Assembly: GCF_000826685.1 (NCBI RefSeq)
Contig: NZ_JROO01000031.1
Coordinates: forward strand, 62,001-126,000
Length of the DNA stretch: 64,000 bases
Reading direction: 5' to 3'
Source: Streptomonospora alba
Lineage (GTDB): Bacteria; Actinomycetota; Actinomycetes; Streptosporangiales; Streptosporangiaceae
The notes under the pieces are model-generated. The model worked only from the letters and a program-made list of their open reading frames with translations. It searched no databases and had not been told where the DNA came from. Position 1 is the stretch's first letter. Every line of letters starts with the position of its first letter. Both the position numbers and the translations under genes were made by a program. Shown here one piece after another: positions 4,993 to 28,190 of this stretch.

Positions 4993-6366
4993 ATGCCTGT
5001 CCCGAACGCCCCCTCGGACGCATCCGCCGCGCCACCCCGCCGGTCGTTCGCGAAGGTCGTGATCTCCAGCCTCATCGGCACCACCGTCGAGTGGTACGAC
5101 TTCTTCCTCTACGGCTCGGCGGCGGCCCTGGTCTTCGGGGCCGTCTTCTTCCCCGATTCCGATCCCCTGACCGGCATCCTGCTCTCCTTCGGCACCTACG
5201 CCGTCGGATTCGTCGCCCGCCCGCTCGGCGGGCTGGTCTTCGGTCACTTCGGCGACCGCGTCGGCCGCAAGAAGCTGCTGGTCATCAGCCTTCTGCTGAT
5301 GGGCGGCGCCACCTTCGCCATCGGCCTGCTGCCCGGCTACGCCGCCATCGGCACGGCCGCACCGCTACTGCTGATCGTGCTGCGGCTGATCCAGGGCTTC
5401 GCGCTGGGCGGCGAATGGGGCGGCGCGGTGCTGATGGTCTCCGAGCACGGCAGCGCCAAGCACCGCGGGTTCTGGGCCTCCTGGCCGCAGGCCGGCGTGC
5501 CGTGCGGCAACCTGCTGGCCACCGCCGTCCTCGCGGTCCTGGCCGCCACCATGGCCGACCCCGCCTTCGAGTCCTGGGGCTGGCGCATCCCGTTCCTGCT
5601 GTCGGGCGTCCTGGTGCTCGTGGGCCTGTGGGTCCGGCTCGCCGTCGAGGAGTCGCCGGTGTTCCAGGCCGCGGCCACGCGCGCGGCCCGGCTCCGCGCC
5701 CAGCAGGAGGCCACCGAGCGCGCCCCGATCATCGAGGTCGTGCGCCGCCACTGGCGGGAGATCCTGGTGGCCATGGGCGTGCGCCTGGCCGAGAACATCT
5801 CCTATTACGTCATCACGGCGTTCATCCTCGTCTACGCCGTTCAGGAGTCCGGAGTCGAAAGGGGCACGGTCCTCAACGCGCTGCTGGTGGCCGCCGCGGT
5901 GCAACTGGTGGCCATCCCGATCTGGGGGACCCTCTCCGACCGCTTCGGCCGCCGGCCGATCATCGCCTTCGGCGCGATCGGGACGGGGGCGTGGGCCTTC
6001 GCGTTCTTCCCGGTCATCGACCTCGGCGGGTTCGGGGCGGTGCTCGCGGCCGCGGCCGTGGGCCTGGTCCTGCACGCGGCCATGTACGGGCCGCAGGCGG
6101 CGTTCTTCTCCGAACTGTTCGGCACCCGGACGCGCTACTCCGGCGCATCGATCGGGTATCAGCTCGCGTCGATCGTCGCCGGCGGACTGGCGCCGCTGAT
6201 CGCCACCTGGCTGCTGTCGCAGTTCGGCAGCGCCGTGCCGGTGTCGGCCTACGTGGCAGGCGCGTGCGTGCTCACGCTGGTGGCAGTGTGGGCCTCCCGG
6301 GAGACCCGCGGCCGCGACCTGGACGACCCGCTCTTCGCCGCGGACGATACCGCCGCGACCGGCTGA
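4993..6366 (+). CDS. MHS-family MFS permease (metabolite:H+ symporter)
   Basis: A 457-residue inner-membrane transporter of the major facilitator superfamily, MHS (ProP/ShiA/KgtP-like) branch. The hallmark N-terminus SLIGTTVEWYDFFLYG is present, followed by RPLGGLVFGHFGDRVGRKK, the family loop between TM2 and TM3, and LRLIQGFALGGEWGGAVL in TM4-5. About 12 hydrophobic segments can be counted. The ATG at 4993 is chosen because the upstream frame has no helix and this start gives the usual short cytoplasmic N-terminus; GGAAG precedes it. Next to polyester-degrading genes it may import 3-hydroxybutyrate or another small organic acid, which is inference from context only. Confidence 0.85.
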   Translation: MPVPNAPSDASAAPPRRSFAKVVISSLIGTTVEWYDFFLYGSAAALVFGAVFFPDSDPLTGILLSFGTYAVGFVARPLGGLVFGHFGDRVGRKKLLVISLLLMGGATFAIGLLPGYAAIGTAAPLLLIVLRLIQGFALGGEWGGAVLMVSEHGSAKHRGFWASWPQAGVPCGNLLATAVLAVLAATMADPAFESWGWRIPFLLSGVLVLVGLWVRLAVEESPVFQAAATRAARLRAQQEATERAPIIEVVRRHWREILVAMGVRLAENISYYVITAFILVYAVQESGVERGTVLNALLVAAAVQLVAIPIWGTLSDRFGRRPIIAFGAIGTGAWAFAFFPVIDLGGFGAVLAAAAVGLVLHAAMYGPQAAFFSELFGTRTRYSGASIGYQLASIVAGGLAPLIATWLLSQFGSAVPVSAYVAGACVLTLVAVWASRETRGRDLDDPLFAADDTAATG

Positions 6367-18706: not shown

Positions 18707-19030
18707 TCAGTCTTCGTCGGGCGTCACCTGCGGGACCGCGAAGGGCGGGGTGCCGCTGCCGACGATGCGGTATCCGCCCCACACGTTGGTCTCGGCGAGC
18801 TTGCCCCGGCCCTCGTGGCCTTCGGGGGTGCGCAGCACGATCGCGGTGTCACCGGACGTGTAGGCCGCGTCGGCGACCGGGTCGGCGGAGACGCGGCCCA
18901 CCCACCGGTAGCCGCCCTCCAGAGGATCGAAATGCCCGGAGACGTGCACCTCGACCTCGGCCTCGGCGCCGCCGGCGACCAGGGTCGCCGGTCCGTGGTA
19001 CTCCTCCTCGTCGTCGCCCATACCGCTCAC
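18707..19030 (-). CDS. DUF4873 domain protein
   Basis: A 107-residue acidic protein composed almost entirely of a DUF4873 domain (EEEYHGPATLVAGGAEAEVE, GHFDPLEGGYRWVGRVSA, NVWGGYRIVGSG). DUF4873 is known mostly beside or fused to flavin monooxygenases, and here it is the last gene of the oxygenase operon, 58 bases after the monooxygenase. The GTG at 19030 is chosen over an internal ATG because AAGGAGG sits 5 bases upstream. Its role is unknown; an accessory or substrate-binding part of the oxygenase is plausible. Confidence 0.8.
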   Translation of the reverse strand: MSGMGDDEEEYHGPATLVAGGAEAEVEVHVSGHFDPLEGGYRWVGRVSADPVADAAYTSGDTAIVLRTPEGHEGRGKLAETNVWGGYRIVGSGTPPFAVPQVTPDED

Positions 19031-19088: not shown

Positions 19089-20663
19089 TCACCGCGGCGC
19101 GAGCGCCCCGCGCGCCTCGGCCCGCGCGCCCTGCCGGCTGCGCGTGCGCTCAGCGCCCGGGACGGCGCCCAGGTGGTAGTTGCCGGGGTCGAAACGGCCG
19201 GTGCGCAGCTTGTAGTCCCAGGTGAATCCGGGCCACAGGGTGGTGTTGCGGCCCTGGTCGTTGAGGTACCAGCTGTCGCAGCCGCCGGTGACCCACACGG
19301 TCCCTTCCATCTTCTTCTGCACCCACTGGGTGTAGGCCTCCTGCGCCTCGGCGCGCGGCTCCAGCCGGTCGGTGCCGCGGTCGTGGGCGTAGCGCAGCGC
19401 GGCCATGGTGTAGCCGACCTGGGCTTCGAGCATGAACAGCTGGGAGGTGTGACCCAGTCCGGTGTTCGGGCCGGCCAGCACGAACAGGTTGGGATAACCG
19501 GCGACGGTGGTGCCTCGAAGCGCGCTCATGCCCGCCTCCTGATTCCAGCGGTCGGCCAGCAGCACACCCTCGGCGTCGCGGATCCGGTGGGCGATGGGGC
19601 TGTCGGTGACGTGGAACCCGGTGCCGAATATCAGCGTGTCCACCTCGTGGCGGGTGCCGTCGCGGGTGACGACGGCATCGGGCTGGACCTCGGCGATGGA
19701 GTCGGTGACCACATCCACGTTGGGCGCGTTCAGCGCCGGATAGTAGTCGTTGGACAGCAGGATGCGCTTGCAGCCGATGGTGTAGTCGGGGATCAGCTTG
19801 CGGCGCAGTTCGGGGTCCTTCACACCGCGCCGGAGGTTGGCCAGCGCGAGCTTCTCGACGACCGTGAGCAGTCGCGTGTTCTTGGCGAAGCCGAAGATGT
19901 AGTTCTCCCGGCCCCAGTAGATGAGGGTGCGGGCCAGGCGCTGGACCGCCGGCACGGCGTTGTAGATCCGCCGCTCCAGGGCGGTGATGTTGCGGTCGTG
20001 CCGCGGGATCACCCAGGGCGGGGTGCGCTGGAACACCCGCATCTCGCCGACCTTGGGCTGGATCTCGGGGATGAACTGGATCGCCGAGGCGCCCGTGCCG
20101 ACCACGCCGACCTTGCGGCCGGTGAGGTCGTGGTCGTGGTCCCAGGTGGCGGAGTGGAAGACCCTTCCCTCGAACGAGTCGAGCCCGGGCAGGTCGGGGA
20201 TGGACGGGTCGGCCAGCGGGCCGCAGCCGGTGACCAGGAACTGCGCGGTGACCGTGCCGCCGGTGGTGTGCACCCGCCAGCGGTTGCCCTCGGGCTCCCA
20301 ACGGGCCTCGGTCACATCGTGGCCGAAGCGCACGTGGCGGACCACGTCGTAGTCCTTGGCCACCCGGCGCAGGTAGTCCCAGATCTCGGGCTGCGGCGAG
20401 AAGCTGCGGCTCCAGTCGGGGTTGGGAGCGAAAGAGAAGGAGTACAGGTGCGAGGGGACGTCGCACGCGGCACCGGGGTAGGTGTTGTCGCGCCAGGTGC
20501 CGCCGACGTCGTCGGCGCGCTCCAGCAGCACGATGTCTTCGAGCCCGGCCTGTTTGAGCCGGACCGCTGTGCCGATTCCGGCGAACCCGGTGCCGATGAC
20601 GGCGACCCGGTAATGGGGAGGCGCCGCCTCCTGGTTCTCGGACACGTCCTGGGCTTCGGTCAC
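19089..20663 (-). CDS. Baeyer-Villiger-type flavin monooxygenase
   Basis: A 524-residue class B flavoprotein. The FAD motif VAVIGTGFAGIGTAVRL is near residue 20, the Baeyer-Villiger fingerprint FEGRVFHSATW near residue 165, and the NADPH Rossmann motif VGVVGTGASAIQF shortly after. DTLIFGTGFHVTD is the late conserved segment. It should use NADPH and O2 to oxygenate a ketone, aldehyde or other lipophilic substrate. The GTG at 20663 follows AAAGGA. The gene lies 107 bases after the diiron oxygenase and 58 before DUF4873, on one strand. Confidence 0.9.
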   Translation of the reverse strand: MTEAQDVSENQEAAPPHYRVAVIGTGFAGIGTAVRLKQAGLEDIVLLERADDVGGTWRDNTYPGAACDVPSHLYSFSFAPNPDWSRSFSPQPEIWDYLRRVAKDYDVVRHVRFGHDVTEARWEPEGNRWRVHTTGGTVTAQFLVTGCGPLADPSIPDLPGLDSFEGRVFHSATWDHDHDLTGRKVGVVGTGASAIQFIPEIQPKVGEMRVFQRTPPWVIPRHDRNITALERRIYNAVPAVQRLARTLIYWGRENYIFGFAKNTRLLTVVEKLALANLRRGVKDPELRRKLIPDYTIGCKRILLSNDYYPALNAPNVDVVTDSIAEVQPDAVVTRDGTRHEVDTLIFGTGFHVTDSPIAHRIRDAEGVLLADRWNQEAGMSALRGTTVAGYPNLFVLAGPNTGLGHTSQLFMLEAQVGYTMAALRYAHDRGTDRLEPRAEAQEAYTQWVQKKMEGTVWVTGGCDSWYLNDQGRNTTLWPGFTWDYKLRTGRFDPGNYHLGAVPGAERTRSRQGARAEARGALAPR

Positions 20664-20770: not shown

Positions 20771-21727
20771 TCAGGCGCGTTGAGTTTCCGGGCCGGCGGT
20801 CGAGGGGGCGGGTGCGTCGCGGCGGCCCAGCAGCCCGGCCTTGCGCCACAGGAATCGGCCGGGGCCCGAGATGGCGCCTGCGCGGTCGAGGGTGGCCACG
20901 ACCTTGCGGGCCGCCCAGGTCTTCGTGTCGATCCAGTGGGGGTTGCGGCGGGCGGCCTTGCGTGCCGCGCGGGGATCGAGGCCGACGCGCTCGTAGACCT
21001 TGGGGCTGATCAGCCGCGTCGCCGAGTAGTAGACGACCAGGCCCAGGACGAAGCGGCTGTAGTGCTGGACGAGGGGTCCGCGCTTCTGCCAGTCGCGCGC
21101 GAACTCCTCGCGGGCGTAGCGCATGTGCCGCGCCTCTTCCACGACGTGGATGCGCGAGACCGCCCGGGTCAGGGGCTCCAGCTCCTCGTCGGCCATGATC
21201 TCCCGCTGGAGCTGGTCGAGGATCTCCTCGACGAACAGCGCGCCGCTGAAGGTCAGGGGGCCGTTGGAGATCGTCTTGAAGACCTTGCCCAGGAAGTGCG
21301 TGACGGGGTCGAGCCGGTAGAAGGGGGCGTCGAGCTTGCCCAGCAGCTTGGCGAACATGACCGAGTGCCGGCATTCGTCGGCGATCTCGGTGTAGGCGTA
21401 CTGCACGTGGTTGGTGGTGGGATCGCGGTCGTAGGCATGGCGCACGAGCATCTGCATCAGGATCGTCTCGAACCAGATCCCGATGCTGGCGACGCTGGCG
21501 ATCTCCTGGCGGCTGAGCTCCTTGCGCTGGTCCTCGGTGAGCGTCTCCCACAGCTCGGTGCCGTAGAGGGAGATCCGCTCGGGCCGGATCGCGTACAGGT
21601 CCGGATCGACGGGGGCGTCCCAGTCGATCTCCACGAGGGGGTCGAAGGACGCCTTGGCCGACGAGCGCAGCAGGCGTTTGGCGATGTCTTCGCGGTCGGT
21701 CGTGCGGGTCTGCGGCTCAACGGTCAA
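20771..21727 (-). CDS. AurF-like diiron oxygenase
   Basis: A 318-residue helical protein of the AurF/p-aminobenzoate N-oxygenase-like family. Likely iron ligands can be counted: Glu in IWFETI (87), EIADECRH (Glu118, His121), VEEIL (Glu168), then RIHVVEEARHM (His194, Glu198, His201). This matches the 4-5 carboxylate and 3-histidine pattern of a non-heme diiron site. The start is TTG at 21727, 8 bases after GGAGG; no ATG or GTG fits as well. It is the first gene of the operon with the monooxygenase and DUF4873. Relatives were long annotated as metal-dependent hydrolases; the substrate is unknown. Confidence 0.83.
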   Translation of the reverse strand: MTVEPQTRTTDREDIAKRLLRSSAKASFDPLVEIDWDAPVDPDLYAIRPERISLYGTELWETLTEDQRKELSRQEIASVASIGIWFETILMQMLVRHAYDRDPTTNHVQYAYTEIADECRHSVMFAKLLGKLDAPFYRLDPVTHFLGKVFKTISNGPLTFSGALFVEEILDQLQREIMADEELEPLTRAVSRIHVVEEARHMRYAREEFARDWQKRGPLVQHYSRFVLGLVVYYSATRLISPKVYERVGLDPRAARKAARRNPHWIDTKTWAARKVVATLDRAGAISGPGRFLWRKAGLLGRRDAPAPSTAGPETQRA

Positions 21728-21830
21728 CGTCGGTCCTCCTTGTCCTCATCCGGCGACGGCCCGGCGGTCGCCGTCCCGCGGGCCGCACCCTGAGGGTGGG
21801 ATGTGATCTCGTCCACACCGTGGATGCCGA

Positions 21831-21854
21831 AACATTACAACGGTCATTGTCACA
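21831..21854 (-). promoter_or_regulatory. Operator-like motif, site A, in the oxygenase-operon promoter
   Basis: On the minus strand this reads TGTGACA-N7-TTGTAATGTT. It lies in and around the spacer of a good promoter: -35 TTGAAT (21860-21855), 17-base spacer, -10 TAATGT (21837-21832). This would start transcription about 97 bases before the oxygenase TTG. The same motif recurs at 25810-25833. It sits between the oxygenase and the MerR gene, and MerR-family proteins bind promoter spacers, so MerR binding is a reasonable inference. Confidence 0.6.
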
Positions 21855-21956
21855 ATTCAAGTGGTAGATGAAAGGCGGAGGAAGCGGCGCCACGAGGGCG
21901 CCGCGGCCGCTTGAGGCGCGCTCGCGCGACTCCGCGAGACCTCGGCCGCGACGCCC

Positions 21957-21962
21957 TAGGCT
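21957..21962 (+). promoter_or_regulatory. -10 element (TAGGCT), leaderless MerR gene
   Basis: TAGGCT is followed by 6 bases and ATG at 21969, with no Shine-Dalgarno. The regulator is probably made from a leaderless transcript. Confidence 0.45.
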
Positions 21963-21968
21963 TGGGGC

Positions 21969-22805
21969 ATGGCCGAATACCGCATCGACGAGTTGGCGCG
22001 GCTCTCTGGGACGACGGTGCGAAACGTCCGCGTCTACCAGGACCGGGGGCTCCTCTCGCCGCCCCGCCGCGAAGGCCGCGTGGGCATCTACACCGAGGCC
22101 CACCTGGCGCGCTTGCGGCTGATCGGCCAGTTGCTCAAACGGGGCTACACCTTCGCCAACATCAGCGAGCTCATCACCGTCTGGGAGCGCGGCGGCGACC
22201 TCCAGGACATCCTCGGCTTCGAGTCGGCCATGGGCGACCCCTGGTCGGACGAGATCCCCGGCTACATCACCATGTCCGAGCTGCGCACGATGTTTCCGGG
22301 ACAGGTCAGCGCACCCAACATCACCCGTGCGCTGCGGTTGGGCCTGATCGAGCGCGAAGGGCTGCGCTTCCGCGTGCCGAGTCCCCGGCTCCTCAACGCC
22401 GGTGGGGAGCTTGTGGCGGCGGGCATGGACCTGAGTACCGTGCTGGACATCTCCGAGCGGCTGAAGGAGCGCGTCGGCGCCCTCGCCGGCGAGCTGGTGC
22501 GCACGGTGGCCGACCACATCCTCGCTCAGCACGCTCCCCAGGGCCTCCTGCAGGGCGAGGAGATCGCCGAGACCGCCACGCTGGTGCGCCGGCTGCGGCC
22601 GCTGGCCCAGACCGCCGTCGACGCGATGCTCGCCGACGCCATGGCCCGAAGCCTGCAGGAGGTGCTGGGCGAGCACTTCGCCGAGGTGCTCGAACACATC
22701 AACGAGCGCAAGAGCGCCGCGGACGGCGTCGATACCGAGGACGGCGACGCGCCCGGCGACGGGCCGGACGGCGGGGCCGCCGAGGCCGGGCAGCGCTCGG
22801 CCTGA
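21969..22805 (+). CDS. MerR-family transcriptional regulator
   Basis: A 278-residue regulator. The N-terminal MerR winged helix is clear: YRIDELARLSGTTVRNVRVY, then QDRGLLSPPRREGRVGIYTE, and LKRGYTFANISELIT. The long C-terminal part (residues 90-245) has a second wing-like segment (MSELRTMFPGQVSAPNITRA) and helices suited to ligand binding. The tail is acidic and disordered. It is divergent from the diiron oxygenase operon and its stop is one base from the stop of the convergent hydrolase gene. It is the natural candidate to bind the shared motif at sites A and B. Confidence 0.88.
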   Translation: MAEYRIDELARLSGTTVRNVRVYQDRGLLSPPRREGRVGIYTEAHLARLRLIGQLLKRGYTFANISELITVWERGGDLQDILGFESAMGDPWSDEIPGYITMSELRTMFPGQVSAPNITRALRLGLIEREGLRFRVPSPRLLNAGGELVAAGMDLSTVLDISERLKERVGALAGELVRTVADHILAQHAPQGLLQGEEIAETATLVRRLRPLAQTAVDAMLADAMARSLQEVLGEHFAEVLEHINERKSAADGVDTEDGDAPGDGPDGGAAEAGQRSA

Positions 22806-22806
22806 G

Positions 22807-23742
22807 TCACTGCGCGGGCCCCGCCATCGCGGCACGGCACAGTGCGGACAGCTCCGCGCCGACCGCCTCCGGCGCCTCGAAGGGGAGCATGTGCCCGCAG
22901 GCGGGCAGCATCCGCAGCTGCGCTCGCGGCAGCCCCCGGGCGAGTTCCCGGGGGAGGCGCCTGCCGATCAGGCGGTCGCGCCCGCCCGCGAGCACGCGCA
23001 CCGGCAGCGCGCCCAGCGCGCCGAGTCCGCTGCTCAGGTCGTCGCCGGTCAGGGACTCGTAATAGCCCGCGACCACATCGGTGGGGGTGCTGTGGACGAG
23101 CTCGGCGCACTCGCGCACGTGCAGCGGATCGGCGGCGGGTCCGAAGGCCGCCCGCCGGACCGCGGCCCGGTAGGCGGTCGTGTGCGGGGGAAGCAGGAGG
23201 CGCAGCCGGTCGACGGCGGCGGGCGCCCGCCCCAGCGCGCGCACCGCGGTCCGCCGGGCGGCGCCCGCCATCTGCGCACCGAGCGGCCGGCCGGGACCGG
23301 GCTCCAGTCGACCCGCCGCGGTGGCCGCCAGCAGTACCCCGGCGACCCGCTCGGCGACGAGGCCGGGATGCGCGGCGGCCAGCGCCATGATCGCCCGGCC
23401 GCCCATGGAGTGCCCGCCCAGCACCACCGGTCCCTCCGGGGCGCAGGTCTGCAGGACCTGCCTCAGGTCGTCTCCGAGAGCCGCGTTGCCCAGGGGACGG
23501 CTGCCCCGGGTGGAACCGCCGTGGCCGCGCTGGTCCCAGCGGACGGTGCGCACCGCGCCGTCGGGGTCGGCGGACAAGCGGGTGGCCTGCAGGCGCCAGG
23601 TGTCGGAGGACATCATCCAGCCGTGGCCGAGCACGGCGGTCACGGGCGCGTCGGCCGGACCGCGGATGTGCACCCGCAGTTCGGCGCCGTCGGTCGTGTG
23701 CACGATCCGGGTCCGGTCGGCGGCATGGCGCAGGGGGATCAC
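22807..23742 (-). CDS. Alpha/beta hydrolase
   Basis: A 311-residue alpha/beta-fold hydrolase. The oxyanion motif VLGHGWMMSSDTW is near residue 38, the nucleophile elbow is GGHSMGGRAIM, an acid residue lies in LAGGRDRLIG, and the catalytic His is in CGHMLPFEAP. The GTG at 23742 follows AAGGAGG by 5 bases. It lies 121 bases downstream of the GMC oxidoreductase on the same strand, with a strong hairpin between them. In context it may hydrolyse an ester made by the Baeyer-Villiger enzyme, which is inference. Confidence 0.8.
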   Translation of the reverse strand: MIPLRHAADRTRIVHTTDGAELRVHIRGPADAPVTAVLGHGWMMSSDTWRLQATRLSADPDGAVRTVRWDQRGHGGSTRGSRPLGNAALGDDLRQVLQTCAPEGPVVLGGHSMGGRAIMALAAAHPGLVAERVAGVLLAATAAGRLEPGPGRPLGAQMAGAARRTAVRALGRAPAAVDRLRLLLPPHTTAYRAAVRRAAFGPAADPLHVRECAELVHSTPTDVVAGYYESLTGDDLSSGLGALGALPVRVLAGGRDRLIGRRLPRELARGLPRAQLRMLPACGHMLPFEAPEAVGAELSALCRAAMAGPAQ

Positions 23743-23764
23743 GGGTGCCTCCTTCGTGTCGTGG

Positions 23765-23810
23765 CGCCTCCTCGGCCGCGGTACCGGGGGAGGCCGCGGC
23801 CGAGGAGGCG
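23765..23810. terminator. Strong hairpin between GMC oxidoreductase and hydrolase
   Basis: A perfect 17-bp stem (CGCCTCCTCGGCCGCGG and its complement) with a 12-base loop lies 54 bases after the GMC stop on the minus strand. It probably terminates or attenuates GMC transcription before the hydrolase. Confidence 0.75.
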
Positions 23811-23863
23811 GGTGGAAGCGGGCCGGGCCGCCGCCGCGCGGCGCCCCGACCGGCCCGGGTCGG

Positions 23864-25729
23864 TCAGGTCGGGCGGGTCGCCTCCGCGGAGCCGGAGTCG
23901 GCCTCGCGATTCTCGACCACGCTCAGCGGCAGCGGGACGGTGAAGCGCAGCTCCGCCATCGCCCCTGCCGGGACCGCCGGGTTGTTCGGGAACACCGGGT
24001 CGATTCGGCGGTAGGCCTCGCCGGGAGCGGGACGGGGGTCCTCCTCGCCCTTGTTGGGCCAGCACGACATCGCCCGCTCCGCCTGAGCGGTGATGGTCAG
24101 CGACGGGTTGACGCCGAGGTTCGCCGAGACCGCCGAGCCGTCGACCACGTGCACGCCGGGATGGCCGTAGAGCCGGTGGTAGGGGTCGACGACCCCCTCC
24201 TCGGGGGAGGAGCCGATCGGGCACCCGCCCAGGAAGTGCGCGGTCAGCGGGATGTCCAGCACCTCGCCGATCGTGCCGCCGGCGTGGCCGTCGATCTCCT
24301 CGGCCAGGCGGGTCATCACCTCCTGGCCCTGGGGGATCCAGGTGGGATTGGGCTCGCCGTGGCCCTGGCGCGAGCTCAGCACCCGCCCGCCCAGCAGGCC
24401 GCGCTTGGTGAACGTCGTCAGCGAGTTGTCCAGCGACTGCATGACCAGGCCGATGATCGTGCGCTCGGAGAAGCGCCGCACCGAGAGGCTGCGCGCGAAG
24501 ACGCGGGGGTTGCGCGCGGCCACCCCCAGGAACCGAAGCCACCGCGGAACGCGGCCGCCGCCGGGTACCTGCACCGTGGCCAGCAGTCCCATCGCGTTGG
24601 ACCCCTTGCCGTAGCGGACCGGCTCCACGTGGGTGCGGGAGTCGGGGTGCATCGACGACGTGATGGCCACGCCCTGGGAGAAGTCCTCGGCCGGCTCGAC
24701 GTCCTTGTCCATCGCCCCGGCCAGCGACTCGGAGTTCGTCCGCGTCAGCGTGCCCAGCCGGTCGGAGATCCGCGGCAGCATGCCGTTCTCGCGCATGCGG
24801 TGCAGCAGCGTCTGGGTGCCGTAGGTGCCGGCGGCCACCACCACGTGGCGGGCGGTGAAGGTGCGGGCGTACTTGCGCCTGCGCGGTGCGCCGGTGGCCA
24901 GCGTGTCCACCGCGTAGCCGGCGCCCTCGGGGGCGTCGGCGGGCAGTTCGCGCAGCCGCTCCACGGTGGTCATGGGGTGGACCACCGCGCCGTCGCGCTC
25001 GGCGAAGTACAGGTAGTTCTCGGTGAGCGTGTTCTTGGCGCCGTGACGGCAGCCGGTCATGCACGAACCGCACTCGGTGCAGGCGTTGCGCTTGGGCCCG
25101 GCGCCGCCGAAGTAGGGGTCGCCGCCGCACTCGCCCGGCGCGGCGCGGTGGTCGCCGTCGCCGTCGTCGCCGTCACCGAAGTAGACGCCGACGGGCGCCA
25201 GGTGGAAGCTCTCGCCCACCCCCATGTCGTCGGCGACCTTCTTCAGGTGCACGTCGGAAGGGGTCATCGTCGGGTTGGTGCGCACGCCGAGCATGCGGCG
25301 GGCCTGGTCGTAGTAAGGGGCGAGCTCCGAGCGCCAGTCGGTGATGTCGCGCCACTGCGGGTCTTCGTAGAAGTCGTCGAGCGGGGTGTAGAGGGTGTTG
25401 GCGTAGTTCAGCGAACCTCCGCCGACTCCGGCGCCCGCCAGGATCATCACGTCACGCAGCAGGTGTATGCGCTGGATGCCGTACATGCCCAGTCGGGGCG
25501 CCCATATGAAGTTCTTCACATCCCATGAGGTCTTTGGGAGAGTCTCCGGGGTGAAGCGGCGGCCGGATTCGAGGATGCCGACGCGGTAGCCCTTTTCGGT
25601 CAGTCGCAGGGCGCTGACGGCACCTCCGAAACCCGAGCCGATGACGACGACGTCGTAGTCGAAACCGTCTGAGCCGGGGGCCGCCGCCTGGCCCTCCTGG
25701 GGGGTTGTGTATGTCTCGTGGGTTGCCAC
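23864..25729 (-). CDS. GMC oxidoreductase, cholesterol-oxidase (ChoD)-like
   Basis: A 621-residue FAD-dependent GMC-family oxidoreductase. The FAD motif VVVIGSGFGGAVSALRL is near residue 26. GAGVGGGSLNYANTLY follows, and a Cys-rich segment CTECGSCMTGCRHGAKNTL is near residues 218-236. The C-terminus has THFLGGCPIG-like AHFLGGCPIG, HVVDGSAV and NPSLTITAQAERA. The Cys segment is typical of the mycobacterial ChoD-like group annotated as cholesterol oxidase, whose true substrates are uncertain. The GTG at 25729 is chosen for the GGAAGG upstream and the start of homologous sequence. It is divergent from the DUF6230 gene across site B. Confidence 0.86.
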   Translation of the reverse strand: MATHETYTTPQEGQAAAPGSDGFDYDVVVIGSGFGGAVSALRLTEKGYRVGILESGRRFTPETLPKTSWDVKNFIWAPRLGMYGIQRIHLLRDVMILAGAGVGGGSLNYANTLYTPLDDFYEDPQWRDITDWRSELAPYYDQARRMLGVRTNPTMTPSDVHLKKVADDMGVGESFHLAPVGVYFGDGDDGDGDHRAAPGECGGDPYFGGAGPKRNACTECGSCMTGCRHGAKNTLTENYLYFAERDGAVVHPMTTVERLRELPADAPEGAGYAVDTLATGAPRRRKYARTFTARHVVVAAGTYGTQTLLHRMRENGMLPRISDRLGTLTRTNSESLAGAMDKDVEPAEDFSQGVAITSSMHPDSRTHVEPVRYGKGSNAMGLLATVQVPGGGRVPRWLRFLGVAARNPRVFARSLSVRRFSERTIIGLVMQSLDNSLTTFTKRGLLGGRVLSSRQGHGEPNPTWIPQGQEVMTRLAEEIDGHAGGTIGEVLDIPLTAHFLGGCPIGSSPEEGVVDPYHRLYGHPGVHVVDGSAVSANLGVNPSLTITAQAERAMSCWPNKGEEDPRPAPGEAYRRIDPVFPNNPAVPAGAMAELRFTVPLPLSVVENREADSGSAEATRPT

Positions 25730-25802
25730 GGCCTCGCCTTCCTGAGCCGTCCATGCTGCTGAGGGCCGTCCTCGCGGCGGAAGTCGCACGTGAGGCAGGC
25801 GG

Positions 25803-25833
25803 TTGGAAATGTGACATCAACTATTGTAATGTT
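25803..25833 (+). promoter_or_regulatory. Promoter with operator-like motif, site B, for DUF6230/DUF6114
   Basis: -35 TTGGAA (25803-25808), an 18-base spacer and -10 TAATGT (25827-25832) predict a start about 107 bases before the DUF6230 ATG. The segment 25810-25833 reads TGTGACA-N7-TTGTAATGTT, identical to site A in all 17 fixed positions. On the opposite strand the same bases give TACAAT, a possible -10 for the divergent GMC gene. Confidence 0.6.
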
Positions 25834-25945
25834 CATCACCTACCAGCGGGTAAGGTGTCCTGGTTAACACATCGCCGCGCATACCTCACACCCCCTCGCC
25901 CCGTCGCGGACACCGGCATTCGTTGTCCGTAAAGGAGGAAGTTCA

Positions 25946-26569
25946 ATGGCAGAGGAGACGACTGCGGAGGCCCCCCGGGCGTCCGGCGGCACCGCCTGGA
26001 AGCGGTTCGCTCTCACGTTCATCCCGGCGCTCGGCGCTGCGGGGATCCTCGTCGGCCTGACCGCCCAGGGCACCCTCGCCGCGTCGTTCGCGGTCTCGGG
26101 CGAGAGTTTCAAGGTCTCGGCGGATCAGCTCGCCGGAACCGGCTTCGCCCAGTACGCCGACACCGCGACGTCCGCCGACGGCACGGAGCACCCCGTCGCG
26201 CTCTCGGTCATCGACCACGCGGAGCTCAGCAACCTCTGCCAGTCGGTGCTGATGGACACCGGAGTCGGTGAAGTGACGCTGCTCGTCAAGGCCGGCCAGG
26301 GCGACAAGCCGGCGGTCGCCGAGAACATGGTCATCGACGTCGAGCAGCTCTCCGGCGACGCCGAGTTCACCCAGATGGAGATCGGCCGCGACGCCAGCAC
26401 GGTCGAGAACGCCACAGGCAAGACCGGCGAGGTCGGCGCCTTCGGCCAGCAGGCGGACAAGATCACCATCGACGGGCTCCGGCAGACGGCATGGTCCGTC
26501 AACGCCGGTACCTTCAGCCTCACCGGTCTGAAGTTGAGCGTGAAGCCCGGAAACCACGAGTGCTACTGA
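25946..26569 (+). CDS. DUF6230 family membrane-anchored protein
   Basis: A 207-residue protein with a polar N-terminus, one hydrophobic helix (residues about 24-46, LTFIPALGAAGILVGLTAQG) and an extracytoplasmic beta-rich domain. Its motifs ASFAVSGESFKVSADQL, ENMVIDVEQLSGDAEF and TDLKLSV-like TGLKLSVKPG are those of DUF6230 proteins, which older annotation calls cholesterol esterase without proof. The ATG follows AAAGGAGG. Four bases separate it from the DUF6114 gene, forming a tight two-gene operon. Function is unknown; a cell-surface lipid-related role is a guess from neighbours. Confidence 0.8.
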   Translation: MAEETTAEAPRASGGTAWKRFALTFIPALGAAGILVGLTAQGTLAASFAVSGESFKVSADQLAGTGFAQYADTATSADGTEHPVALSVIDHAELSNLCQSVLMDTGVGEVTLLVKAGQGDKPAVAENMVIDVEQLSGDAEFTQMEIGRDASTVENATGKTGEVGAFGQQADKITIDGLRQTAWSVNAGTFSLTGLKLSVKPGNHECY

Positions 26570-26573
26570 TTCC

Positions 26574-28190
26574 ATGACCCGAAACGGCACCTCACGCAGC
26601 TGGCGCACCGCACGCGCGGCGTTCCGGCAGTGGCGCGGCGCCCGCCCTTTCTGGGGCGGCCTGCTGATTCTCCTCGCCGGAATCATCATCGTCGCGGCGC
26701 CCGTACTCAACCCTCTCGATCTGATCGTGGAGCAGGGCGTCGCGGGGATCTCCGGCTATTTCGCCGGACTGCTGCTGATGGCGGTCGGCGTGCTGGTGTG
26801 GCTGCAGCCGCCGCAGCGCTTCTTCTACGGCATCGCAGCGGTGCTGCTCTCGCTCGTCTCCTTCGTGACCTCCAACTTCGGCGGATTCGTCTTCGGGATG
26901 CTCTTCGGCTTGATCGGCGGTGCGCTGACCGCGGCCTGGGTACCCGACCGCGCGCGGAGAACCGCGTCGGAGAGCCCGTCCTCGCCGGCGCGCAAGCGCC
27001 TGGCGGGACTGCGCGGCAGCAGAGCGGGGCGCGCGAGCGAGGCCGAGACCGCGGTACAGCCTGCCTCCGAGGCCGCCGCAGACGAGTCGGACTCCGGTGC
27101 GGGGGACCCGTCCGCACCCGGCTCCCGGACCGGCCCGGCGGAGGACGAGACGGGTCCTGCGCGGGAGATAGGGGATTCCGCGCAGGACTCCGCCCACGAC
27201 GCGTCGGACACGGGCTCCACGGGGTCCCGGGCCGGCGGCGCCACCTATTTCACGTCGCCCACCCCTTCGAGCGGCGCCGCCGCGGGGCGCCGGCGCCCCG
27301 CGGACGAGGCCGCCCCGGGCTCCGACGAGGGCTTATCGGCCGGCGACGGCGGCCCCTCGGGCGGCGGCCGGATGCACTCGCTGGCCGCGATCGCCGCGGC
27401 ACTGGTCTTCGCGGTCCCCGCCCCGGCTGCCGCGACCTGGCCGTGGGACGACTGGTTCGGCGGCGACAGCGGGGAGGAGACCGCCGAGCCCGACCCGTCG
27501 GCCACTCCGACCCCCTCGCCGACGCCGTCGCCCTCCGGCGGCGCGGACGACGGCGCCGGTGGTGCACAAGGCGAGCAGGACGGCTCCGCCGAAGAGGCGG
27601 AGGACGGCGAGGGCGAAGAGGAGGAGGCGCCCGAGGCCGCCGAGGAGTGCTCTGTCCAGGAGGGCCCCGCCTCGATGAGCGAGGAGGAGTTCCGCGCCCT
27701 GCTGGAGGCCTGCCGCCAGGCCAAGGAGGACGGCGAGGCCCCGGACTTCCAGGTCCGGCAGGGCGACCCGCCGGAGGGCGACGGCCGATGGCTCGCCCAC
27801 ACCGACACCTCAGGGCTCAGTGCCGACACTCTCAGCATGAGCGGCGCGGCCTTCGAGGGCGTGGTCGAGTACCCCGTCCAGGGCGGCACCGTGCGCTACC
27901 TCAAGATGTCCATGGACACCGCGGAACTCAGCGGCGCCCGGCAGTGGGCCGAGCACGCGGGTACCACCACATCGCTGGAGATCCCGGAGATGACCATGTC
28001 GGGAGACGTCGTCATGCACGTCACCCGGATGAAGGTGCGGATCCTGGGCATCCCGCTGGAGTTCACGCCGGACTTCCCGCCCCCGCTGCTCCTGCCGTCG
28101 ATGACGGTCACCGACCTGGAGGCCGACCAGCCGCTGGCCCAGGCCCAGACGGTCAACATCACCGGGCTCGACGAGCAGGTGGAGAGCTGA
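26574..28190 (+). CDS. DUF6114 membrane protein with C-terminal surface domain
   Basis: A 538-residue protein. Residues 25-125 hold four hydrophobic helices (FWGGLLILLAGIIIVAAP, GYFAGLLLMAVGVLVWL, FFYGIAAVLLSLVSF, GGFVFGMLFGLIGGAL), the DUF6114 core. Residues 125-265 are a low-complexity Ser/Ala/Asp/Arg linker. A second signal-like helix is near 268-290 (LAAIAAALVFAVPAPAAAT). A second acidic linker follows, and then a C-terminal domain from about 395 that resembles the DUF6230-type fold (TLSMSGAAFEGVVEYPVQGG, TVTDLEADQPLAQAQTVNIT). It looks like a membrane protein fused to a separate secreted domain. The ATG lies 4 bases after the DUF6230 stop. Confidence 0.75.
   Translation: MTRNGTSRSWRTARAAFRQWRGARPFWGGLLILLAGIIIVAAPVLNPLDLIVEQGVAGISGYFAGLLLMAVGVLVWLQPPQRFFYGIAAVLLSLVSFVTSNFGGFVFGMLFGLIGGALTAAWVPDRARRTASESPSSPARKRLAGLRGSRAGRASEAETAVQPASEAAADESDSGAGDPSAPGSRTGPAEDETGPAREIGDSAQDSAHDASDTGSTGSRAGGATYFTSPTPSSGAAAGRRRPADEAAPGSDEGLSAGDGGPSGGGRMHSLAAIAAALVFAVPAPAAATWPWDDWFGGDSGEETAEPDPSATPTPSPTPSPSGGADDGAGGAQGEQDGSAEEAEDGEGEEEEAPEAAEECSVQEGPASMSEEEFRALLEACRQAKEDGEAPDFQVRQGDPPEGDGRWLAHTDTSGLSADTLSMSGAAFEGVVEYPVQGGTVRYLKMSMDTAELSGARQWAEHAGTTTSLEIPEMTMSGDVVMHVTRMKVRILGIPLEFTPDFPPPLLLPSMTVTDLEADQPLAQAQTVNITGLDEQVES

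Follow-up and report, generated by a model that had tools for sequence, protein, structure and literature searches.

A 24-bp motif, TGTGACA-N7-TTGTAATGTT, is common to two promoters that lie 4 kb from each other in a 64,000-nucleotide stretch of the genome of the soil actinobacterium Streptomonospora alba (NZ_JROO01000031.1, positions 62,001 to 126,000; hereafter the window), and we proposed that this motif very probably serves as operator for the MerR-family protein whose gene is at 21969-22805. Judged from sequence, a MerR dimer would bind an 18-bp dyad, TnACA-N8-TGTnA, at both promoters (site A and site B) and would control a few oxidizing enzymes and membrane proteins in a two-site regulon: operon A, with genes for an AurF-like oxygenase, a Baeyer-Villiger or flavin-containing monooxygenase (BVMO/FMO) and a DUF4873 protein, led in most relatives by a short-chain dehydrogenase/reductase (SDR) gene; and operon B, with the DUF6230 and DUF6114 genes. 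What is new here is not the regulon as such but its operator geometry and the regulator's sensor domain. The elements in question are as follows.

21831..21854, minus strand: site A motif TGTGACAATGACCGTTGTAATGTT, upstream of the AurF operon, found by motif search and conserved in relatives
21835..21852, minus strand: predicted operator dyad of site A, TnACA-N8-TGTnA, from dyad pairing fractions
21855..21860, minus strand: -35-like TTGAAT abutting site A, with a 17-bp spacer to TAATGT; TTGnAt in most relatives
21832..21837, minus strand: -10-like TAATGT at site A; TAAYGT in most relatives
25810..25833, plus strand: site B motif TGTGACATCAACTATTGTAATGTT, upstream of DUF6230, found by motif search and conserved in relatives
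25803..25808, plus strand: -35-like TTGGAA at site B, with an 18-bp spacer to TAATGT at 25827-25832
21969..22805, plus strand: MerR-family regulator of 278 residues, with a PF13411 helix-turn-helix (HTH) at residues 4-69 and a C-terminal helical domain (residues ~93-255) related to Rv1264N

The first-pass annotation of this DNA had reported the motif at 21831-21854 on the minus strand and at 25810-25833 on the plus strand, and both copies were recovered with 0 mismatches. No third match at three or fewer mismatches was found inside the window, and in the whole genome (5,912,473 bases; 5.9 Mb) there was no further match at two or fewer mismatches, the sole other match having 3. A site profile trained solely on 23 sites from MerR/AurF/DUF6230-type clusters reported sites A and B alone in this genome at E<=10, with 150 of 244 first-look candidates scored. 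When a larger regulon was sought with the same profile in this genome and in 40 others, the latter under stricter filters and with scoring limited to 150 first-look candidates in each genome, one site outside these clusters was obtained (G004 contig 5, E 0.01), which was not upstream of any gene shown by a simple gene caller. Coincidence, or the recent duplication of part of a promoter, is refuted by conservation and retains practically no probability: none of 100 dinucleotide shuffles of the window gave a motif match, the match between the two promoters ends at the motif, and the middle bases and flanks of A and B differ, each version being common to several genera. Nothing was found in favor of either explanation.

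The 24-bp motif is therefore real as first described, but it is better read as an 18-bp inverted repeat, TnACA-N8-TGTnA, overlapping the -10-like TAATGT. Alignment of the 23 sites, combined with symmetry scoring, indicated that the dyad merges with the -10-like TAAYGT. Counted outward from the center, base pairs 4 to 7 matched in every A site (n = 13) and pair 2 in 0.92 of them; among the B sites (n = 11), matching was invariable at pairs 5 to 7 and 9 alone. A perfect dyad, TAACAATGAGCATTGTTA, was present at the A site of one relative (L110). There and in L111 the A-site sequence is TAACAATGNNCRTTGTTA, and the -10-like hexamer, TAAAGT or TAACGT, comes one base further downstream. Because the -10 is shifted by one base in these two loci while the dyad spacing is kept, the operator is separable from the -10. 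Sites in distant loci (described below) read TGTGACA...TGTCACA. A CRP-type reading (TGTGA-N6-TCACA) was considered and rejected, the spacing from TGTGA to TCACA being 12 rather than 6. The motif might instead be a core promoter element of an alternative sigma factor and no operator at all, as its overlap with the -10-like hexamer and the fixed order of -35, motif and -10 would allow; however, just two occurrences in a 5.9-Mb genome, the strong dyad symmetry of the A sites, and the displaced -10-like hexamer of L110 and L111 make this highly improbable.

The linkage between the motif and this particular regulator was evident in a panel of 60 genomes, the S. alba genome included, in which a MerR ortholog was defined by at least 65% identity. 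The motif (two or fewer mismatches) was present in 13 of the 13 genomes with an ortholog and in only 1 of the remaining 47 (G034), 9 of which encode a MerR homolog at 32-56% identity. Both the AurF/MerR site and the DUF6230 site were found in 11 of the 13 ortholog-bearing genomes; the A site of G011 had 5 mismatches to the initial pattern, and the B site of G023 had 3. The MerR/AurF pair was kept together with site A in G007 and G036, of which G007 has its DUF6230 gene on a separate contig without the motif, and a search for a DUF6230 gene in G036 found none. The DUF6230 genes themselves gave a sharp contrast. Thirty were present in the 60 genomes; 11 carried the motif (three or fewer mismatches), all of them beside this MerR gene, and all of the other 19, none of which is next to this MerR gene, had at least 5 mismatches and hence no motif. 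Seven of these 19 are second copies in genomes that also hold a motif-bearing DUF6230 copy.

A second, overlapping sample was drawn from named sequence records: 80 loci, of at least 576 confirmed, comprising 25 clusters of the same type (24 from Nocardiopsaceae and one, L130, from an unclassified metagenome-assembled genome) and 55 loci with distant MerR homologs (~46-54% identical; 37 actinobacterial and 18 non-actinobacterial). L106, L107 and L111 of this set are genomes G004, G003 and G011 of the panel. At three or fewer mismatches, the B site preceded DUF6230 in 22 of 22 testable loci and the A site stood by merR in 21 of 24, and 45 of the 47 sites at this threshold fell in the A or B place. 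The two exceptions were a B-like site in L110 that precedes DUF6114, DUF6230 having gone undetected in that locus, and, in L129, an A-like site in front of a second SDR/AurF pair. The claim that the MerR protein at 21969 controls both promoters is thus supported, at the level of sequence, by the linkage of motif and ortholog, by the contrast among DUF6230 genes, and by the distant loci described next; the genome-wide search and conservation check advised by the first-pass annotation showed the motif to be unique to the two promoters and to co-occur with the MerR ortholog.

The distant loci were scored by the best profile match of the whole locus, whatever its score. In 30 of the 37 actinobacterial loci, against 0.57 expected, this match was located no more than 200 bp upstream of merR. 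In 28 actinobacterial loci the gene divergent to merR was cyclase-like in 20, another gene in 3, and absent by the gene caller in 5. One such adenylate-cyclase-like gene divergent to the MerR homolog is L133:5903-6910, with equivalents in Actinomadura loci; 16 of the 20 cyclase-like genes were aligned and were 60-85% identical to it. A Pfam cyclase domain was found in 3 of 3 divergent genes scanned, and in 2 of these, the cyclases of L132 and L173, the N-terminal part resembles Ad_Cy_reg, below its cut-off (E 2.8e-5 and 5.4e-5). The site stays with merR even though the neighbors change, indicating that it follows the regulator and not the targets. In L073 (G053 contig 44), an Ad_Cy_reg cyclase was also observed ~6 kb from a distant MerR homolog on one contig.

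Conserved neighborhoods can make co-occurrence misleading, and it could be argued that another transcription factor, encoded elsewhere, reads the motif while the MerR gene is a bystander. We consider this improbable, since the distant loci keep the site with merR when the neighbor has become a cyclase gene, and since the site is kept beside merR and AurF in two loci (L063, L064) without DUF6230 in the neighborhood. In addition, among 12 more divergent MerR loci (L046-L057), a related inverted repeat in altered form was recognized by eye at the same place in 7.

Several observations weigh against our assignment of the motif to the MerR protein. Most of the 37 distant actinobacterial loci come from Actinomadura, a single clade, so that 30 of 37 does not represent independent events; 7 of the 37 are misses, with no convincing site in L146, L174, L182 and L184 and the best match elsewhere in L161, L180 and L181. 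Among the 25 same-type clusters, the A site carried 4-5 mismatches in 3 of the 24 testable loci (L110, L111, L129). By eye, no inverted repeat was seen in L048, L051, L052 and L056, and the palindrome of L050 is unrelated. Linkage was weak in the 18 non-actinobacterial loci, where the best match lay within 200 bp upstream of merR in 1 (0.3 expected) and 0-1300 bp after the merR start in 5 (1.8 expected). The clearest non-actinobacterial sites were those of Endozoicomonas sp. G2_2 and Salinisphaera; in the former (L152), sites at ~7822 and ~11489 near the MerR homolog precede an alpha/beta hydrolase gene with two PF10118 genes, and an SDR gene, respectively.

The promoter context bears on how the regulator would act. 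The motif had been placed inside two promoters, and this was borne out in part: the TTGnAt and TAAYGT hexamers are conserved across species, but neither promoter region passed a sigma-70 consensus scan (threshold, 9 of 12 matches), TTGAAT/TAATGT having 7 of 12 by eye, which counts against the promoter assignment. Site A is taken to lie inside a promoter because the hexamers are conserved and the SDR gene starts close downstream in relatives; in most loci the TTGnAt hexamer directly abuts the A site. As had been noted, the gene starts are about 100 bases away, the AurF start (21727) lying 104 bp and the DUF6230 start (25946) 112 bp downstream. Conservation was profiled in promoters selected for carrying the motif (three or fewer mismatches) with sufficient flank, namely 17 A promoters from 24 testable and 21 B promoters from 22 testable. 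The 24 bp of the motif and the 7 bases preceding it were 0.93-0.94 conserved at A, against 0.58-0.67 further upstream and 0.68-0.77 downstream; the corresponding values at B were 0.89-0.91, 0.64-0.73, and 0.73-0.87, the downstream part of B containing a second palindrome.

The location of the dyad between the -35- and -10-like hexamers is conserved, and the hexamers are weak; in most Nocardiopsis loci, CTAGAA or CTGGAA stands at the -35 place of the B promoter. With the hexamers as inferred, the spacer is 17 bp at A and 18 bp at B and in L110 and L111, and the dyad is centered 11-12 bp from the -35-like hexamer and extends into the -10. For metal-sensing MerR proteins, by comparison, spacers of 19-20 bp and an operator center 7-8 bp from the -35 are reported (PMC5045206), and classical activation through the spacer does not fit the geometry found here. 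It is nevertheless conceivable, if unlikely, that the protein binds both sites as a classical activator, twisting a promoter with weak -35 and -10 elements, at least at B: the protein belongs to the MerR family, the dyad lies between the hexamers, and the -35 place of most Nocardiopsis B promoters is weak. Against this stand the spacer length and the displaced dyad center just compared (PMC5045206), and by eye no -10-like hexamer follows the alternative TTGTGA at 19-20 bp. Repression appears the more likely mode, since the promoter spacing is normal (17-18 bp) and the dyad overlies the promoter as far as the -10, and we proposed that the MerR protein probably acts mainly as a steric repressor.

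The regulator consists of a MerR winged HTH (PF13411, E 4.1e-21; matched by 81 of 81 aligned members) and a C-terminal domain that is related to Rv1264N, the domain by which the Mycobacterium tuberculosis adenylyl cyclase Rv1264 is regulated. None of the metal-sensor families reached its cut-off (CueR, 36.4 bits against 147.4; nine other listed families were also below). The predicted structure (mean predicted local distance difference test, pLDDT, 87.6; predicted template modeling score, pTM, 0.65) matched MerR proteins and Rv1264N, Foldseek giving matches to the Rv1264 structures 2ev1 and 1y10, with 2ev1_B the best of these (E 1.1e-3, probability 1.00). In hhalign, the whole protein aligned with a broad profile, built from 7 PF16701 hits and 16 cyclase N-termini, at 94% probability (E 1.1e-7, score 56, 173 columns, residues 38-225), and the C-terminal part alone at 85% (E 6.4e-6, score 43). 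With the PF16701 hits only, the whole protein reached 88% (E 3.2e-6) and the C-terminal part 74% (E 2.9e-5), and the controls (two reversed and 20 permuted) gave scores of at most 15.4 and E of at least 0.16.

A number of tests point the other way on this relationship. The Foldseek TM-scores to Rv1264 were modest (0.28-0.51); hhalign was negative with the Actinomadura cyclase alignment alone and with a single cyclase sequence; pairwise shuffle z-scores to Rv1264N-type domains were all below 3; and the PDB sequence match to such a domain was weak (E 0.87). Pfam Ad_Cy_reg (PF16701) matched 6 of the 81 members at E<=1 (best 0.012), was not among the matches of the window MerR protein, and did not attain its gathering score.

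An Rv1264 structure was found to contain oleic acid, which also activated the related Rv2212 (PMC12505454). The Rv1264N-like domain, taken with this oleic acid, suggests a lipid effector, and by this likeness, as a reasoned guess, the regulator may respond to a lipid, which fits the targets and neighbors (oxygenases, SDR, hydrolases and a cholesterol-oxidase-like enzyme). We tentatively proposed that the repression might be relieved when the Rv1264N-like domain binds a lipophilic effector, for instance a long-chain fatty acid or one of the products of its oxidation, with the odds slightly against this by our own reckoning. A broader proposal is more doubtful still: the regulator could represent a class of MerR proteins, widespread in actinobacteria and present in some gammaproteobacteria, that sense lipids and in which a MerR HTH is joined to a sensor of common descent with the oleic-acid-associated cyclase regulatory domain. 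Under that proposal, Rv1264N would be a sensor of MerR type from which the DNA-binding part has been lost, and the Actinomadura MerR gene and Ad_Cy_reg-type cyclase gene would stand back to back around one shared operator. In the open-access literature, outside of which most subscription journals fall, "Rv1264" occurred with "MerR" only in a paper on mammalian sphingolipids.

The genes of the window around the two sites are listed here.

18707..19030, minus strand: DUF4873 protein (PF16170, E 1.8e-28)
19089..20663, minus strand: Baeyer-Villiger/FMO-like monooxygenase (PF00743), its N-terminal half like cyclohexanone and phenylacetone monooxygenases (CHMO/PAMO)
20771..21727, minus strand: AurF-like diiron oxygenase (PF11583, E 5.5e-104), which leads operon A in the window
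22807..23742, minus strand: alpha/beta hydrolase, by family match
23864..25735, minus strand: GMC oxidoreductase, cholesterol-oxidase-like (NF058674, 562.7 bits)
25946..26569, plus strand: DUF6230 protein (PF19741, E 6.3e-54)
26574..28190, plus strand: DUF6114 protein (PF19609, E 1.2e-34)
21801..21818, minus strand: remnant-like ribosome-binding region and start of an SDR gene, from sequence comparison with relatives
25841..25852, plus strand: second palindrome TACCAGCGGGTA, just downstream of site B

The operon make-up and the divergence of MerR from the AurF operon and of the GMC gene from DUF6230 agreed with the first description. At 562.7 bits, the GMC gene falls below the NCBIfam cholesterol oxidase cut-off of 850 (NF058674). 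The idea that DUF6230 proteins were formerly called "cholesterol esterases" gained no support and was set aside; in the same literature, DUF6230 or DUF6114 was mentioned in a single paper, which tabulates a DUF6230 gene among promoters of moderate strength.

In 21 of the 25 named-record clusters, operon A begins with an SDR gene that adjoins the A site; the gene matched PF00106 in all 4 of the relatives scanned. The window and five stretches from the same genus are without this gene; its remnant at 21801-21818 seems to remain, and would account for the long leader before AurF. Second AurF genes with their own A-type sites were observed in L117 (sites at 5703 and 6911) and in L129 (site at 1096, with a weaker site by merR). 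Downstream of the B sites, the second palindrome, TAC[CT]N4[AG]GTA, was present in 22 of 22 named-record loci and in 11 of 11 of the overlapping genome set, and it also preceded 4 of the 19 motif-less DUF6230 genes, which suggests that it may be the operator of another regulator of DUF6230 promoters. A search of the S. alba genome for this palindrome gave one exact and four 1-mismatch matches, against 6 for a reversed control, and revealed no regulon.

Taken together, the results would provide a defined regulator, an 18-bp operator and a two-operon regulon for the domain-of-unknown-function families DUF4873, DUF6230 and DUF6114 and for the AurF/BVMO pair. Like CueR, CadR and BmrR, the regulator has an N-terminal MerR winged helix, and its predicted dyad operator lies between -35- and -10-like hexamers; unlike theirs, its promoters lack the 19-20 bp spacer, the dyad is shifted toward the -10, the protein reaches no metal-sensor cut-off, and the C-terminal domain resembles Rv1264N. 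The MerR-family nitrogen regulators GlnR and TnrA, whose operator is TGTNA-N7-TNACA, share the MerR HTH and a short inverted-repeat operator with the system proposed for the window, whereas the half-sites of the latter are reversed (TnACA-N8-TGTnA) and its protein adds a helical domain of ~180 residues. In EthR-EthA, and with other regulators of Baeyer-Villiger monooxygenases, a repressor is encoded divergently from a BVMO gene, an arrangement that the window would share if its regulator represses; EthR, however, is a TetR-family protein and the window regulator a MerR-family one. AlmR/AlmA of Alcanivorax was considered as a further relative and dropped, almR being given without a family in a review's table. 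In the lipothrenin cluster of Streptomyces aureus, the AurF-like diiron N-oxygenase gene adjoins a DUF4873 gene (LitN/LitO), as in the window; deletion of litN abolished, and deletion of litO reduced, the products N-hydroxylated on a fatty diacid amide, but the lit cluster has no BVMO gene between the two and its table gives TetR and AfsR regulators (PMC10616846). By profile-profile comparison and Foldseek the C-terminal domain of the window protein matches Rv1264N (PF16701), from which it differs in being fused to a DNA-binding MerR HTH and not to a cyclase, and in falling below the Pfam cut-off by sequence. This link to a mycobacterial cyclase suggests that one ancestral sensing module may have served both gene switching and the making of cyclic AMP.

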